Below are positions 3,998-39,465 of a stretch of DNA of 64,000 bases, piece after piece. The stretch lies in the NCBI RefSeq assembly GCF_002095435.2, contig NZ_MJEJ02000043.1, positions 2,084 through 66,083 of the forward strand, read 5' to 3'. The stretch comes from Williamsia sp. 1138 (lineage in GTDB: Bacteria > Actinomycetota > Actinomycetes > Mycobacteriales > Mycobacteriaceae). The notes under the pieces were generated by a model, which was not told the DNA's origin, ran no database searches, and saw nothing but the letters and a program-made list of their open reading frames with translations. Made by a program: the position numbers and the translations under genes. The stretch's first letter is position 1. The number at the start of each line of letters is the position of its first letter.

Positions 3998-4756
3998 ATG
4001 AGCGGCCACTCCAAATGGGCCACCACCAAGCACAAGAAGGCGGTGGTTGATGCCAAGCGCGGCAAGATGTTCGCCAAGCTCGTGAAGAACATCGAGGTTG
4101 CGGCGCGAACCGGCGGCGGTGACCCGAGTGGCAACCCGACGTTGTTCGACGCGATCCAGAAGGCCAAGAAGTCGTCGGTCCCCAACGACAACATCGAGCG
4201 GGCCCGCAAGCGCGGCGGCGGCGAAGAAGCCGGTGGCGCCGACTGGCAGAACATCACGTACGAGGGCTATGGCCCCAACGGCGTCGCGATCCTCATCGAA
4301 TGCCTCACCGACAATCGCAACCGTGCTGCCACCGAGGTGCGCACCGCGATGAGCCGCAACGGGGGCAACATGGCAGACCCCGGTTCGGTCTCGTACCTGT
4401 TCCATCGCAAGGGTGTGGTGACCCTCGAGAAAGCAGGCCAGACCGAGGACGACGTGCTGACGGCCGTTCTCGAGGCAGGGGCCGAAGATGTCACAGACCT
4501 CGGCGACACCTTCGAGATCGTCAGCGAGCCAACCGATCTCGTTGCCGTACGGTCCGCGCTCCAAGACGCCGGGATGGACTACGAATCAGCTGAGGCGAGC
4601 TTCCGGGCGTCCGTCGAAGTACCTGTCGACGCCGACGGTGCTCGCAAGGTGTTCCGCCTGATCGACGCGCTCGAAGATTCCGACGACGTGCAAGACGTCT
4701 ATTCGAACGTCCACATCAGTGACGAGGTCCTGGCCGAGTTGGAGGAAGACGACTAG
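3998..4756 (+). CDS. yebC: YebC/PmpR family protein (TACO1-like)
   Basis: Member of the DUF28 family, 252 residues, the normal length. The N-terminus [20 protein letters not shown] and the later GYGPNGVAI and [10 protein letters not shown] are signature stretches. Family members have been described both as DNA-binding regulators and, more recently, as ribosome-associated factors that help translate difficult sequences; the sequence does not decide between them. Its place upstream of ruvC is conserved in many bacteria. The 125-bp gap before it has a TAGGAT at 3911-3916 that could be a -10 element, without a clear -35. GAAAGGGG precedes the start. Confidence 0.95.
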
Positions 4757-4946: not shown

Positions 4947-5019
4947 TGTCAGCGCGAGTCGTTCCGACCGCGGTCGGGACTCGGGTGTGTTGGTACCCCG
5001 GATTGTCTTGGCGTCCGGC

Positions 5020-5025
5020 TACGAT
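5020..5025 (+). promoter_or_regulatory. Candidate -10 element for the ruvCAB operon
   Basis: TACGAT fits the actinobacterial TANNNT pattern and ends one base before the LexA box. No convincing -35 is seen 16-18 bp upstream. Position relative to the operator makes it the best guess for the SOS promoter. Confidence 0.35.
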
Positions 5026-5026
5026 A

Positions 5027-5042
5027 TCGAACAACTGTTCGC
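5027..5042. promoter_or_regulatory. LexA (SOS) box upstream of ruvC
   Basis: TCGAACAACTGTTCGC matches the actinobacterial SOS operator TCGAAC-N4-GTTCGA in 11 of 12 fixed positions, the last base differing. It lies 32 bp before the ruvC start and directly after a TACGAT -10-like hexamer. LexA binding here should repress ruvCAB until RecA-stimulated LexA cleavage after DNA damage. Confidence 0.8.
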
Positions 5043-5073: not shown

Positions 5074-5643
5074 ATGCGGGTGATGGGTGTCGACCCAGGT
5101 CTGACCAGATGCGGCATCGCACTGGTCGAATCGGGTGCGGGCCGCGCCGTGACCGCCCTGGACGTCGACGTGGTGCGTACGCCGCCGGAGATGGCCCTGG
5201 AGAACCGGTTGCTCGCGATCTACGCCGCCGCTGAGCACTGGATCGAGGTCCACAGTCCTGATGTGGTGGCGATCGAACGGGTCTTCGCTCAACACCAGGT
5301 CAGTACCGCGATGGGCACGGCGCAGGCCGGCGGAGTCGTAGCGCTGGCGGCCGCCAAACGCGACATCCCGGTTCGATTCCACACCCCCAGTGAGGTGAAG
5401 GCGGCAGTCACCGGCAGTGGCCGGGCGGACAAAGCCCAGGTCACCGCTATGGTGACCCGGATCCTGGGAATGCAGCAGGCACCCAAACCGGCGGATGCCG
5501 CGGATGCCTTGGCGCTGGCGATCTGCCATTGCTGGCGGGGTCCGGTGGCCGAGCGGATGGCACAGGCCCAGGCACAGGCTCTGGCACAGCAGAAGGCGTA
5601 TCGAGAGCGTGTCGCCCAGGCGAAGAAGGCGGTTCAGCGGTGA
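5074..5643 (+). CDS. ruvC: Crossover junction endodeoxyribonuclease RuvC
   Basis: Resolves Holliday junctions by paired incisions, working with RuvAB. The 189-residue protein has the RNase H fold residues in place: Asp7 in [10 protein letters not shown], Glu68 in AIERVF, and Asp141/Asp144 in [12 protein letters not shown]. The tail after about residue 160 is Gln/Ala-rich (repeated AQAQA) and probably an extended helix. It is the first gene of ruvC-ruvA-ruvB; its stop overlaps the ruvA start as GTGA. A LexA box upstream indicates SOS control. Confidence 0.97.
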
Positions 5644-6236
5644 TCTCCTCGGTCCGTGGCCCCGTGGTGGACGTGGCCCTCGATCATGTCGTGATCGACT
5701 GCGCAGGAGTCGGTTACCGCGTTCTCGTCACTCCGACCACAGCCGGGTCTGTCCAGCGGGGCGCCGAGGCGACCCTGCTGACGACCATGATCGTCCGCGA
5801 GGACTCGATGACCTTGTACGGGTTCACCGAACCTGACGCACGTTCCCTCTTCACGCTGTTGCAGACCGTGACCGGCGTCGGTCCGCGACTGGCGATGGCC
5901 ACCCTGGCGGTTCTCGAACCCGACGCTTTGCGGCACGCGCTGGCCGGGGAAAACACCAAGGCACTCATGAGCGTTCCCGGGATCGGGAAAAGAGTCGCCG
6001 AGCGTCTCGTCGTGGAACTGCGCGACAAAGTCGACCGTCCGCATTCCGCTGCCGGGACGGCAGCCGGGCCCGGGAGTTCCTCGGTCCGTGATCAGGTCAT
6101 CGAGGCCCTCGTCGGGCTGGGCTTCGCCGCACCGATCGCAGAGAAAACCGTCATCGCCGTCCTGGCAGATCAGCCGGGCGCCGATTCGGCGACCGTGCTG
6201 CGTGCCGGCCTGGCGTCGCTGGGCAGATCCAAATGA
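5640..6236 (+). CDS. ruvA: Holliday junction branch migration protein RuvA
   Basis: Junction-binding subunit that loads RuvB rings onto four-way DNA. The protein has 198 residues: an N-terminal OB fold ([11 protein letters not shown] onward), two helix-hairpin-helix motifs around [13 protein letters not shown] and [15 protein letters not shown], and a C-terminal domain for RuvB contact. The GTG start overlaps the ruvC stop; the frame is open upstream inside ruvC but homology starts here. The ruvB start overlaps its stop as ATGA, so all three genes are translationally coupled. Confidence 0.96.
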
Positions 6237-7417
6237 GCGGCGACACCTTCGACCCCGACGGCGCGGTCGGCCGGGACGGGACGTTTGGTCCCGACGCGGC
6301 GTTCGATCCGGACCGGGCGACCGGTATCGATGGCGCCAACAGGACGGTCAACGCCGGTCGTATCGGTGGTGACGGCGATCTCGACAACAGCCTTCGCCCC
6401 AAATCGCTCGGCGAGTTCATCGGGCAGCCGCGGGTGTGCGAGCAGTTGGACCTCGTGCTCCAGGCCGCCCGTGGCCGTGGTGGGACACCCGATCACATCT
6501 TGCTGTCAGGCCCTCCCGGCCTCGGCAAGACCTCGCTGGCGATGATCATCGCGGGGGAGATGGGTGCCGCCCTTCGGGTCACGTCCGGTCCGGCGCTCGA
6601 ACGCGCGGGGGATCTCGCCGCGATGTTGTCGAACCTCGTCGAAGGTGACGTGCTGTTCATCGACGAGATCCACCGCATCGCGCGCCCCGCCGAGGAGATG
6701 CTCTATCTGGCGATGGAGGATTTCCGCGTGGATGTGGTGGTCGGAAAAGGCCCGGGTGCCACCTCGATACCACTTGACGTCGCGCCGTTCACGCTGGTCG
6801 GCGCGACGACCAGATCGGGCGCGCTCACCGGACCTCTGCGTGACCGATTCGGCTTCACCGCGCACATGGAGTTCTACGACACGGGGGAGCTGGAGCGCGT
6901 CCTGACCCGCTCCGCCGGGATCCTCGGCATCACCATGCAACCCGACGCCGGTGCCGAGATCGCATCCCGGTCCCGCGGTACGCCGCGCATCGCCAACCGA
7001 CTGCTGCGCCGCGTGCGCGACTACGCCGAGGTGCGGGCCGACGGCCTCGTCACCTTACCGATCGCCCGGGCGGCTCTCGCGGTCTACGACGTCGACGAGC
7101 TCGGATTCGACCGGCTGGACCGGGCCGTACTTGCCGCGCTCGTCCGGGGCTTCGGTGGCGGCCCCGTCGGCGTCTCCACGCTGGCGGTCGCGGTCGGCGA
7201 AGAGCCGGCCACGGTCGAAGAGGTCTGTGAACCATTCCTGGTACGTGCCGGGATGATCGCCCGCACCCCCCGTGGGCGGGTGGCCACCGCGGCCGCGTGG
7301 CATCACTTGGGTCTCACGCCCCCGGCAGGAGCTCTCAATGCGGCGTTCGGGGTCCGTGCGCGTGACGAGGGCGCCGGAATGATCTCGCTCTTCGACTCGG
7401 ACGACCAGGACCTCTGA
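6233..7417 (+). CDS. ruvB: Holliday junction branch migration ATPase RuvB
   Basis: Hexameric AAA+ motor that drives branch migration with RuvA. Walker A is [11 protein letters not shown], Walker B is FIDEIHR, and the sensor region [10 protein letters not shown] and a C-terminal winged helix follow. At 394 residues it is longer than the usual 330-360 because of an Asp/Gly-rich N-terminal extension of about 45 residues (with FDPD repeated) before the conserved [10 protein letters not shown]. The ATG is fixed by its ATGA overlap with ruvA. The extension looks disordered and may be lineage-specific. Confidence 0.96.
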
Positions 7418-34550: not shown

Positions 34551-37217
34551 GTGCAGACGCATGAGATCAGGAAGCGGTTCCTGGATCACTTCATCAAGGC
34601 CGGGCACACAGAGGTACCCAGCGCGTCGTTGATCCTCGACGATCCGAACCTGCTGTTCGTCAACGCCGGCATGGTGCCCTTCAAACCGTATTTCCTGGGC
34701 GAGCAGACACCGTCGTACGACCGGGCGACGAGCATTCAGAAGTGCGTCCGCACCCTCGACATCGAGGAGGTGGGTATCACCACCCGCCACAACACCTTCT
34801 TTCAGATGGCGGGCAACTTCTCCTTCGGCGATTACTTCAAACGCGAGGCGATCACGTTCGCGTGGACCCTGTTGACCAACCCGGTCACGGAGGGCGGCTT
34901 CGGTATCGATCCGCTACGACTGTGGCCGACCGTCTATCTCGACGATGATGAGGCCGAAGCCATCTGGCGGGACGAGATCGGGGTGCCCGCCGAGCGGATC
35001 CAGCGCCGTGGCCTGAAGGACAACTATTGGTCCATGGGCGTACCGGGCCCGTGTGGACCCTGTTCGGAGATCTTCTACGACCGTGGCCCGGAGTACGGGG
35101 TCGACGGTGGTCCCGAGGCCGATGAGGACCGCTTCATCGAAATCTGGAATCTCGTCTTCATGGAGAACCAGCGTGGACCAGGTGGCGGCAAAGAAGGCTA
35201 CGAGATCCTCGGACCGCTTCCCAAGAAGAACATCGACACCGGGCTCGGTATCGAACGCGTCGCGTGCATCCTGCAGGGCGTCGACAACGTGTACGAAACG
35301 GACCTGCTGGCCCCGGTCATCGCAGTCGCCGAACGCCTGACCGGCCGGACCTATACCGCCTCCAATGCTGCGGATGCGATCCGGTTCCGGGTCATCGCCG
35401 ATCACTCGCGGACGGCAGTGATGCTCATCGCCGACGGCATCACCCCGGGCAACGACGGACGGGGCTATGTACTGCGCCGGCTGTTGCGTCGCATCGTCCG
35501 GTCCGCCCGACTCCTCGGCGCGAGCAGCACGACGATGGGTGAGTTCATCGAGGCCGTCATCGACACCATGGCGAGTTCGTATCCCGATCTGCCGGAACAA
35601 CGTTCACGCATCGTCTCCATCGCGGTCGGCGAAGAGGACGCCTTTCTCAAGACCCTGTCGGCCGGTTCGAAGTTGTTCGACGACGCCGCGGCCGCGACGA
35701 AGGCGTCCGGCGCAACGCGGATCAGCGGCGGCGACGCATTCGCCCTGCACGACACCTACGGTTTCCCGATCGACCTCACGCTCGAGATGGCAGCAGAAGC
35801 CGGGCTCGCGGTGGACCGCGAGGGCTTCACCGCATTGATGGCCGAGCAGCGCAACCGCGCCAAGGCCGATGCCACAGCGAGAAAATCGGGTCATGCCGAC
35901 CTGAGCGTCTACCGCGAGTTCCTGGACCGTGGCCCGACGTTGTTCACCGGATTCGATGAACTCGCCACCGAGGCACGGGTGTTGGGGCTCGTGGCCGACG
36001 GCGGCCGGGTGCGCAGCGCGTCGAAGGGGCAGACGGTCGAGGTGATCCTCGACCGGAGCCCCCTGTACGCCGAAGCGGGCGGGCAGATCGCCGACATCGG
36101 CACGATCACCACGTCGGCAGGCCTACGCGTCACCGTCAAAGATGTTCAGAAGCTCGGAAAGTCGGTCTGGCTGCACAAAGCCGTCGTCGACGACGGTGAG
36201 ATCACCGAAGGTGACGACGTACTCGCCCAGGTCGACAACGCCTGGCGCCACGGCGCGACGCAGGGTCACTCGGGAACCCACCTGGTCGGCGCCGCACTCC
36301 GCCAGGTACTCGGTCCCTCGGCCACCCAGGCCGGATCGCTCAACCGGCCCGGATACCTGCGTTTCGACTTCAGCGCATCGGGACCGGTCACCGAGTCCCA
36401 GCGGGCAGAGATCGAAGAGATCACCAACTCGGCGGTAGAGGCCAACTATCCGGTCAACACCTTCGAGACCGGCCTGACCGAGGCCAAGGCGATGGGCGCG
36501 ATGGCGCTGTTCGGTGAGAACTACGGAGACGTGGTGCGGGTGGTGGAGATGGGTGGCCCCTTCTCGATGGAACTGTGCGGCGGGACGCACGTCTCGACCT
36601 CGGCGCAGGTCGGGCCGGTCACCTTGCTCGGCGAATCGTCGGTGGGGTCGGGCGTGCGCCGGATCGAGGCCTACGTGGGACTCGACTCCTACCGATATCT
36701 CGCCAAGGAACGCTCCCTGCTCGCCGGATTGGCCTCGTCACTGAAGGTTCCGAGCGACCAGGTCCCCGCCCGGGTCGAGAACCTGGTGACCAAGCTCAAG
36801 GAAGCCGAGAAACAGATCGAGAAGATGCGGGCCGACGCCGCCCGCGCCTCGGTCGGATCGCTGATCGACGATGCTCACCGGGTCGGCGACGTCCTGGTGG
36901 TCGCCGGGTCGCTCGACGGGCTGGACGCGGGCGACTTGCGCACCTTGGCGGCTGACCTGCGCGGCCGGGTGGCGTCGGATGTCGCTGTGGTGGCACTGTT
37001 CTCGGCCTCCGGGGACAAGGTGCCGTTCGCCATCGCGACGACTGAATCCGCCCGCAGCGGAGGCATCAAGGCCGGTGACCTGGTACGCGAACTCGCTCCA
37101 CTGGTGTCGGGTCGGGGTGGCGGCAAACCAGACCTGGCGCAGGGCTCGGGGTCGGACGCAGCGGGGATCGGCCCGGCGTTGGCGCGCCTGCGCGAACTGG
37201 TCGGCGAGATTCGATGA
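34551..37217 (+). CDS. alaS: Alanine--tRNA ligase
   Basis: The protein has 888 residues, normal for AlaRS. The class II catalytic core begins at [18 protein letters not shown], with motif 2-like [19 protein letters not shown]. The editing domain has the zinc-binding HSGTHL and CGGTH sites, and a C-Ala coiled-coil and globular domain closes the protein. GTG start after GTGAGGACC. The ruvX start overlaps its stop (ATGA), and alaS-ruvX-mltG-aroE runs in the same order as in mycobacteria. Confidence 0.97.
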
Positions 37218-37690
37218 CCTTGACGCCGCGCGGACGGCGGCTGGCCATCGATGTCGGAAGTGTCCGCATCGGGGTCGCCTCGTGCGATCCCGACGGCATA
37301 CTCGCCACTCCGGTCGAGACAGTGGCGCGCACACCGAAAGCCGACGGTGACCTGCGTCGTATCGCCGCGATCGTAGACGAGTACGAGGCCGTCGAGGTGA
37401 TCGTCGGGCTGCCCAAGACCCTGCGTGACGAGCACGGCCACGCGGCCGCCCTGGCCACAGAGTTCGGCACGGCGCTGGGAGAACGGATCTCCCCGGTACC
37501 GGTGCTGTACAGCGATGAGCGGCTCAGCACGATCACGGCCCAGCAGGCCCTGCGCTCGTCGGGAGTGCGCGCGAAGGCGCAAAAGAACGTGGTCGATCAG
37601 GCTGCCGCAGTCGCGATCCTGCAGGGATGGTTGGATTTACAGACACATCGCCACGATCTGGAGTCGGGCCGTCAGGAAGGTCTCGGGTGA
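37214..37690 (+). CDS. ruvX: RuvX/YqgF family nuclease (Holliday junction resolvase-like)
   Basis: The protein has 158 residues with an RNase H-like fold. [19 protein letters not shown] gives the first catalytic Asp, VIVGLPKTL the strand before the second acidic position, and [10 protein letters not shown] and [11 protein letters not shown] hold the remaining acidic residues. Family members act in 16S rRNA 5'-end processing and have been proposed as resolvases; in this organism RuvC is present, so rRNA processing is the likelier duty (inference). ATGA overlap with alaS and GTGA overlap with mltG. Confidence 0.93.
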
Positions 37691-39465
37691 ACGACGATCG
37701 ATCCGAGGGACCGCCTGACGATCCCGGCCACGGCGACCGCACAGAACAGCAGGAGCGGGCGGCCCACCGCCGACGGCGGTCCGGTGGACACCCGGACCCC
37801 GAGCGGCTGCGGTACTTCACCCATGGCGATGGCGCGCCTCGCTCCGGTGGTCGTCACGGTCCCCGGGTCATCCCGCTGCAAGATCCGGGTGCCTCTCGTC
37901 GTAACCCGCCCGGCCGGGGCAGCCCACCGGCGGCCGGCTCGCCGTGGTCTCCACCCGGGTCCGACGATGGCCGCCGCCCACCGCCGCCGGGGGCTTCTCC
38001 ACCTTCTTCCGCGGCTCCGCCCGCCCGAGAGCGCGGCCCGGTCGATTCCGGGCCCCTCCGGCCACCTGCCACCGGCCACGAACCTCGGTTCGACCGTCAG
38101 GGTCCGCCCCCACACGCCTACGACCCTGCGCCGACGCACGACGCCCCGGGACCGTTCTCTGATCCCGGTCGAGACGAGTACGACCGCAGGCAGGCCGACG
38201 CCCGCGAGCGGAGTTCGCGGGCGCAGGCCGCTGTCGGCGCCTCCACCACCGAACGCGACGGGGGACCGTTGCCGGCCCACGACCGCTCGCCGAAACGAAG
38301 CGCCGCTGCAGAACGCAGACGCCGGCGGCGCCGAGTCGTCATCTCGATCGCTCTCGTTTTCATGGTGGTGCTGATCGGAGGCATCGGTTACGCGGGACTG
38401 CGCGTGGTCGGGTTCTTCGGCGCCGACGACAAGGACTTCACCAACACCGCAGGTACGGCCGATGTGATCGTGCAGATCCCGCAAGATGCGACGCTGACGA
38501 AGTTCGGTGAGATCCTCACGGAGAACGACGTGGTGGCCAGCGTCAACGCCTTCACCACGGCGGCCAATGGCGAACCGATATCGGCGGGATTCTACAAGCT
38601 CCGCACCGAGATCCCCGCCAGCACGGCGGTGGCGATGATGACGAACACCGAGAACAGGGTGGGCAGGGTCGTCATCCCCGAGGGCCTGCAGCTCGACACC
38701 AAGGAAGGTATCGACGGAAAGACGACGCCGGGTATCTTTGCCAGGGTCGCCGAGGCGACCACCGTCGACCTCAACGGTGAGGAAAGCGGCGTCACCGTCG
38801 AAGAACTCGCCCAGGCCGCCGCCACGGCGACACCACAGGAGCTGGGTGTGCCGTCCTGGGCGACGGATGCGGTGACCGCGCTGACCGGTGACCACCGGCG
38901 GATCGAAGGTTTGATCGCGCCGACGTCGTGGGAGGCCATCGACCCATCCCAGACGCCGGTGCAGATGCTCAATTACCTGATCTCCCGGAGCGCGTCCCTG
39001 TTCGCTCAGTGGGGGTTGCCGGAATCGGGAACCTCCACCAGCAATCTGACGCCCTACCAGACACTGGTGACCGCCTCGGTCGTCGAACGTGAGGTGAATC
39101 GGGCGGAGGACTACCCGAAGGTCGCCCGGGTGATCGTCAACCGGCTCGGTGACGACCAGGCGCTACAGATGGACTCGACGGTGAACTACACCTCGGCCAT
39201 CCAGAACATCGACGTCGCGGGCGATGACTTCACCGCGGCAACCAAGTGGAACACCTACCAGCAGAAGGGACTGCCTCCGACGCCGATCGGAGCGGTGGGC
39301 CAACCTGCACTGCAGGCCTCGCTCGATCCACCTGCGGGTAACTGGCTGTACTTCGTCTCCGTCGACCAGCAGGGGACCACACTGTTCACCGAGGACTTCG
39401 AGCAACACAAGCGGAACCGTCAACAGGCGTGCGACAACGGTGTGCTGAAGACCAACTGTGGATGA
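37687..39465 (+). CDS. mltG: Endolytic transglycosylase MltG
   Basis: Cleaves nascent peptidoglycan glycan strands and so limits their length. The protein has 592 residues: about 210 disordered Pro/Gly/Arg-rich cytoplasmic residues, a basic stop and membrane helix (VVISIALVFMVVLIGGIGYAGL), a LysM-like section, then the YceG catalytic domain with Glu467 in ASVVEREVN as the expected catalytic acid. The very long N-tail is common in actinobacteria and may bind divisome partners. GTG start overlaps the ruvX stop. The stop codon lies inside the first unit of a 15-bp repeat. Confidence 0.94.
   Translation: MNDDRSEGPPDDPGHGDRTEQQERAAHRRRRSGGHPDPERLRYFTHGDGAPRSGGRHGPRVIPLQDPGASRRNPPGRGSPPAAGSPWSPPGSDDGRRPPPPGASPPSSAAPPARERGPVDSGPLRPPATGHEPRFDRQGPPPHAYDPAPTHDAPGPFSDPGRDEYDRRQADARERSSRAQAAVGASTTERDGGPLPAHDRSPKRSAAAERRRRRRRVVISIALVFMVVLIGGIGYAGLRVVGFFGADDKDFTNTAGTADVIVQIPQDATLTKFGEILTENDVVASVNAFTTAANGEPISAGFYKLRTEIPASTAVAMMTNTENRVGRVVIPEGLQLDTKEGIDGKTTPGIFARVAEATTVDLNGEESGVTVEELAQAAATATPQELGVPSWATDAVTALTGDHRRIEGLIAPTSWEAIDPSQTPVQMLNYLISRSASLFAQWGLPESGTSTSNLTPYQTLVTASVVEREVNRAEDYPKVARVIVNRLGDDQALQMDSTVNYTSAIQNIDVAGDDFTAATKWNTYQQKGLPPTPIGAVGQPALQASLDPPAGNWLYFVSVDQQGTTLFTEDFEQHKRNRQQACDNGVLKTNCG

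Follow-up and report, generated by a model that had tools for sequence, protein, structure and literature searches.

The ruvCAB genes of Williamsia sp. 1138 lie behind a palindrome that the original prediction read as a LexA box placing the whole unit under SOS control, and the question raised by this locus is whether ruvCAB is simply SOS-induced or whether its promoter receives further inputs. The window analyzed here is the whole stretch of 64,000 nucleotides in which the locus lies, and the genome searched amounts to 6.08 Mb in 54 contigs. The features of the locus, with window coordinates and strand, are the following.

3998..4756, forward strand: yebC/TACO1-family gene upstream of ruvC (Pfam PF01709, PF20772)
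4986..4994, forward strand: third element TGTGTTGGT, near -46 to -38, a candidate site for WhiA on the reverse strand (conservation)
5003..5025, forward strand: RecA-NDp/PafBC-type promoter TTGTCTTGGCGTCCGGCTACGAT, whose -26 motif has its TGTC core at 5004-5007 (spacing, conservation)
5020..5025, forward strand: -10 element TACGAT (TANNNT) (sequence; conserved spacing to the box)
5027..5042, forward strand: LexA operator (SOS box) TCGAACAACTGTTCGC, spanning roughly -5 to +11 relative to the predicted start (palindrome match; conservation)
5074..5643, forward strand: ruvC, Holliday-junction endonuclease (Pfam PF02075, E 2.3e-55)
5640..6236, forward strand: ruvA, GTG start, 4-bp overlap with ruvC (Pfam RuvA_N, RuvA_C)
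6233..7417, forward strand: ruvB, ATG start, 4-bp overlap with ruvA (Pfam RuvB_N, RuvB_C)

The LexA box upstream of ruvC

The prediction that ruvCAB forms one transcription unit is plausible because each stop overlaps the next start by 4 bp, and 317 bp (window coordinates) separate the yebC stop from ruvC. The RuvC of the window is 98% identical to that of Williamsia limnetica, the nearest named one among the best 80 of 376 relatives. The same window contains, between alaS-like and mltG-like ORFs, an ORF at 37214-37690 that we take to be ruvX-like, the start of which was without a LexA-like box in the palindrome scan of the window (at most two mismatches).

The LexA-type box is present at 5027-5042 on the forward strand, having a single mismatch (the last base) to TCGAACNNNNGTTCGA, and the TACGAT described as a -10-like element beside it is found at 5020-5025, one base upstream. 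The predicted distance of 32 bp to the start was correct within one base, with 31 bp between the box and the ruvC ATG (5074) and 47 bp when counted from the first base of the box. Palindrome matches with at most two mismatches number 18 in the window against a shuffle mean of 4.75, and only two have at most one mismatch, namely the ruvC box and ACGAACCTCGGTTCGA at 38078-38093, which is located within a long ORF and was put down to chance. In the whole genome, the 15-base form TCGAACNNNNGTTCG gave 21 rows, corresponding to 19 places (two of them on both strands), against 1 for the reversed control, and several of the 19 places fall within long ORFs. The stricter form TCGAACANNTGTTCG is found in only 5 of the 21 rows, which are the ruvC box and four sites adjoining ORF starts. 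These four belong to L091, L093, L094 and L100, ORFs that are mutually 64-99.7% identical and presumably resemble the DUF222/13E12 family. The genome has one lexA gene (TIGR00498 above cut-off), its best PDB match being the LexA repressor 6a2q (E 1.2e-60).

That the box is more than chance is decided by its conservation in ruvC upstream regions, which is the strongest evidence. The close set comprised the best 80 of 376 confirmed ruvC relatives plus the window (81 in total), thus the nearest part of the tree, and includes a few MAG records with doubtful titles. Within this set, the TCGAAC and GTTC of the box are invariant in 81 of 81 upstream regions, and a TANNNT lies 0-2 bp upstream of the box in all 81, at exactly 1 bp in 72 of them. 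In the order, RuvC was found in 292 of 298 genomes, and a wider set was assembled from 60 same-order loci (among the matches listed) and 35 from outside the order, giving 95. At the looser threshold of 9/11, the box is present in 82 of these 95 loci; the 13 loci lacking it include two of four in g7, two of four in f15 and all three in f30. Together with four loci without TANNNT, these 13 make up the 17 of 95 rows left out of the motif counts in the wider set. In the f30 loci (L246, L247 and L248), where the LexA palindrome is absent from the ruvC upstream region at the 9/11 threshold, all three have instead TTGTC[AG]GT...TAGCCT, a RecA-NDp/PafBC-type promoter.

The PafBC-type motif at -26

The original prediction was silent on both the TGTC at 5004-5007 and the element at 4986-4994. 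The genome encodes pafB and pafC side by side, PafC matching 7p5x (E 5.9e-97) and PafB being assigned by its WYL domain and its place next to PafC; the ORF before pafB presumably corresponds to the pafA end, which it resembles. From TGTC to TACGAT, the window reads TGTC-12N-TANNNT, which is the exact PafBC spacing, the motif being given as TGTCGG-10N-TA-3N-T in a published passage (PMC8151990). The -26 motif of the window is partial, because the two bases that follow TGTC are TT (TGTCTT), against TGTCGG, TGTCAG and TGTCAC in the same passages (PMC8151990), and this counts against the PafBC reading. Searched over this genome, TTGTCNG-10N-TANNNT gave 14 matches against 19 for the control, so that the motif alone has no genome-wide excess. 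A sigma-70 -35/-10 pair was not found between 4700 and 8100, a weak negative as shuffles yield only 0.3. A layering like that of ruvC, with a LexA-like palindrome after a PafBC-type motif, was also observed at an imuA'-like gene (named from its ORF) in this genome (L108, G000:C24:167562-167584).

One could still regard ruvCAB as an ordinary SOS gene with LexA as its sole damage regulator, a TGTC that arose by chance or survives as a fossil, and a promoter that is otherwise constitutive. The box is indeed the most conserved part of the promoter, 19 Nocardia without the -26 core still keep it, and in Streptomyces venezuelae a LexA ChIP signal as well as mitomycin induction are described for ruvC in parts of PMC9380542. 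The position of the -26 core is nevertheless hard to explain by chance: in upstream regions from the best 80 of 376 relatives, YGTC stands at the PafBC position in 45 of 80 (27 of them TGTC), against 0 of 80 at every one of the eight upstream shifts (-8 to -1) and no more than 4 when the position is moved downstream by 1 to 8 bp. One locus of the 81 (L018), having too little upstream sequence, was left out of these upstream-motif counts. By taxonomic groups drawn up from record titles, YGTC is found in 25 of 31 Mycobacterium and leftovers, 11 of 12 Gordonia, 7 of 11 Williamsia including the window, 2 of the 7 Rhodococcus-like loci scored and 0 of 19 Nocardia, and PafBC control is thus not universal, given the Williamsia and Nocardia counts. 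Also opposed to LexA as the sole regulator is the loss of the RuvC protein upon pafBC knock-down in Mycobacterium tuberculosis (passages of PMC8151990), and this explanation is considered unlikely.

Mitomycin C induction cannot separate LexA from PafBC control. The M. tuberculosis ruvC is reportedly induced RecA-independently despite its SOS box, according to the title of Dawson 2010. In the passages of PMC8151990, on the other hand, neither a recA deletion strain nor the pafBC knock-down has the RuvC protein, with some doubt there as to whether the latter strain still had recA, and the two accounts of M. tuberculosis, RecA-independent induction (Dawson 2010) and RuvC missing without recA, disagree. 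The loss of RuvC in both strains fits a need for both inputs, whereas the RecA-independence in Dawson 2010 does not. Excerpts of other studies include RuvA and RuvC in the PafBC regulon of M. smegmatis, in which some genes carry both motifs (PMC8223512), and class ruvC, ruvA and ruvB as "mixed" (PMC10609372). The prediction that the LexA box makes ruvCAB SOS-induced therefore holds for its first part, the LexA operator being well supported by conservation and by the lexA of the genome, while plain SOS induction is too simple given the PafBC-type motif, the third element and these papers.

A third conserved element upstream of the -10

When the relatives are aligned on the -10, a further consensus of about CGTGTC, then T, is found upstream. 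In 77 of 80 regions (from the best 80 of 376 relatives), the distance from the best CGTGTYSNT match to the -10 is 33-34 bp, and 73 of the 80 score at least 7/8, against at most 13 in 200 shuffles. In the wider set, GCGTGTC at 6/7 or better lies at -37 to -32 in 38 of 49 loci of the same order and 22 of 29 outside it, with shuffle means of 1.0 and 0.7, respectively (maximum 5), and 0-3 in five shifted windows. These counts are to be read against the shuffles and shifted windows that served as controls, as neither pattern was blind: the same 81 sequences had supplied CGTGTYSNT, and GCGTGTC was picked after viewing the wider-set regions. The element of the window, TGTGTTGGT, scores 7/8 on CGTGTYSNT and 5/7 on GCGTGTC, with the weaker core GTGTT, and is weaker in Williamsia generally, since only 5 of 11 pass GCGTGTC at 6/7 and the window does not. 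Among 79 elements (80 relatives and the window examined), the core is GTGTC in 59, GTGTT in 16, ATGTC in three and GTGGC in one; among the 78 of the wider set, it is GTGTC in 29, GCGTC in 12, GCGCC in nine, GTGTT in eight, GTGGC in seven and ATGTC in three, in addition to singles. The element was not seen before the -10 of the three f30 loci.

The combination CGTGTC-gap-TANNNT-gap-CGAAC is present in 164 of 298 genomes, and 25 of 30 loci fetched from that search were ruvC; the genome of the window has no such match because its core is GTGTT. The composite matches listed for the family of the window number at least 47, with 33 at ruvC and 14 elsewhere. When one mismatch was allowed, the composite promoter pattern matched 11 rows in this genome and its control 14, hence no sign of further genes with the element. 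One of the 14 matches elsewhere is a second copy of the ruvC-type promoter in L303 (G142:C12:401562-401608), which has the LexA box, is followed by no ruvC, lies 3 kb from the true ruvC promoter and appears to enter a yebC-like fragment; it is either a rearrangement or an assembly fault. That the element is left over from the 3' end of yebC was ruled out for the window, in which the yebC stop is at 4756 and the element at 4986. Four other loci (L267 of f19 and L283, L285 and L286 of g44) do have a GTGTC at about the usual distance that comes from the VS codons of a yebC-like gene, the stop codon of which overlaps the -10. The reading of CGTGTC...GTC as an ECF-sigma promoter was dropped, its spacing being unlike that of ECF promoters.

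The consensus of RecA-NDp promoters is TTGTCRGTG. As CGTGTCGCTG resembles it, the upstream CGTGTC might be a second contact of PafBC, without any third factor: TGTC is common to both elements, and the tandem copies, about 15-16 bp apart, are repeated at about 1.5 helical turns. The distribution of the element speaks against such a contact, which is judged quite improbable. The upstream element is kept in 19 of 19 Nocardia, none of which has the PafBC -26 core, and at the same distance from 13 other PafBC-type sites of this genome no score reaches 7/8, the best being 6 (L108 and L115), with 3 of 8 at the recA-like L117 and 4 of 8 at the uvrA-like L112. Moreover, the core drifts in the wider set to GCGTC, GCGCC and GTGGC, unlike TTGTC. 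Because it is kept in the 19 Nocardia and stays below 7/8 at the 13 other PafBC-type sites, the third element looks independent of PafBC.

The genome contains a WhiA gene and six WhiB-like genes. Here it is tentatively suggested, as a possibility with less than even chances, that the third element is an old actinobacterial activator site, mostly 32-34 bp upstream of the -10 both within the order and beyond it and independent of PafBC. Its reader would be a factor new to Holliday-junction repair, perhaps WhiA together with a WhiB-like protein, and ruvCAB would then answer to the program of cell division and chromosome segregation in addition to two damage signals. WhiA as the reader is a lead drawn from five letters of sequence. 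No description of the element was found in the open-licence literature, which leaves out the key M. tuberculosis ruvC paper.

Proposed control of ruvCAB and comparison with known systems

ruvCAB is probably driven by a single promoter that receives two or more DNA-damage inputs, PafBC activating this SigA promoter and LexA blocking its start site. From the sequences, spacing and conservation observed here and from the genes for LexA, PafB, PafC, WhiA and WhiB-like proteins, we infer where transcription starts, which proteins bind, how the inputs combine and what the third element does at this promoter, as follows. The SigA polymerase would recognize the -10 (5020-5025), there being no clear -35 hexamer, and PafBC on single-stranded DNA would make the promoter accessible to it by way of the -26 motif, the core of which is 5004-5007. 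Passages of PMC11804915 have PafB reading the -26 motif and PafC meeting domain 4 of SigA. LexA bound to 5027-5042 would block the polymerase at the start, since the box would extend from roughly -5 to +11, until LexA undergoes RecA-dependent self-cleavage; single-stranded DNA would thus be the signal reported by both inputs. The third element (4986-4994) may be bound by another factor, probably an activator touching the polymerase at about -42. That PafBC alone drives the induction of ruvCAB, with LexA bound and mattering little, is very improbable: the title of Dawson 2010 on M. tuberculosis ruvC, the membership of RuvA and RuvC in the M. smegmatis PafBC regulon (passages of PMC8223512) and the three of three f30 ruvC loci with a PafBC-type motif but no LexA palindrome would suit it, but an effectless box would hardly remain invariant in 81 of 81 regions (best 80 of 376 relatives plus the window), and RuvA, RuvB and RuvC are all missing in the M. 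tuberculosis recA deletion (passages of PMC8151990).

The LexA box at ruvC is real and ordinary, and dual damage control is already known in mycobacteria. Like the window, M. tuberculosis has an SOS box at ruvC, and passages of the papers above have both LexA and PafBC acting on the unit; unlike the window, the third element goes unmentioned in the published passages compared. The mycobacterial recA, uvrA and uvrC, described with RecA-NDp and an SOS box in parts of PMC8223512, resemble the ruvC of the window in having a PafBC-type -26 motif and a LexA box, hence two damage inputs. This genome has the two elements of its recA-like gene further apart: the PafBC-type promoter is at C51:94167-94189 and the box, at C51:94259-94273, lies some 70 bp upstream of it, whereas the ruvC box abuts the -10. 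For S. venezuelae, an initial search suggested that the PafBC motif is not conserved (passages of PMC9380542). What is added here is the placement of probable dual control in Williamsia and a box/-10 geometry that is fixed in the best 80 of 376 relatives, together with a proposed promoter code in which a LexA box overlies the start site, a PafBC motif lies at -26 and the third element stands further upstream. The 19 Nocardia lacking the -26 motif constitute a natural experiment.

The third element is the part most deserving pursuit, and its closest likeness is to the WhiA/WhiB targets of Streptomyces (GACAC/GTGTC). Read on the opposite strand, its core GTGTC becomes GACAC and the variant GCGTC becomes GACGC, the latter being present in the WhiA footprints at treZ (passages of PMC3781837), a paper whose main text has no words beginning with "ruv". 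Unlike the WhiA motif, the ruvC element exceeds five letters in length, has the core GTGTT in the window and is not seen before the -10 of the f30 loci, and the wider-set variants GCGCC (9 of 78) and GTGGC (7 of 78) fit WhiA less well. If WhiA and a WhiB-like protein were its readers, Holliday-junction processing would be tied to division control in actinobacteria.
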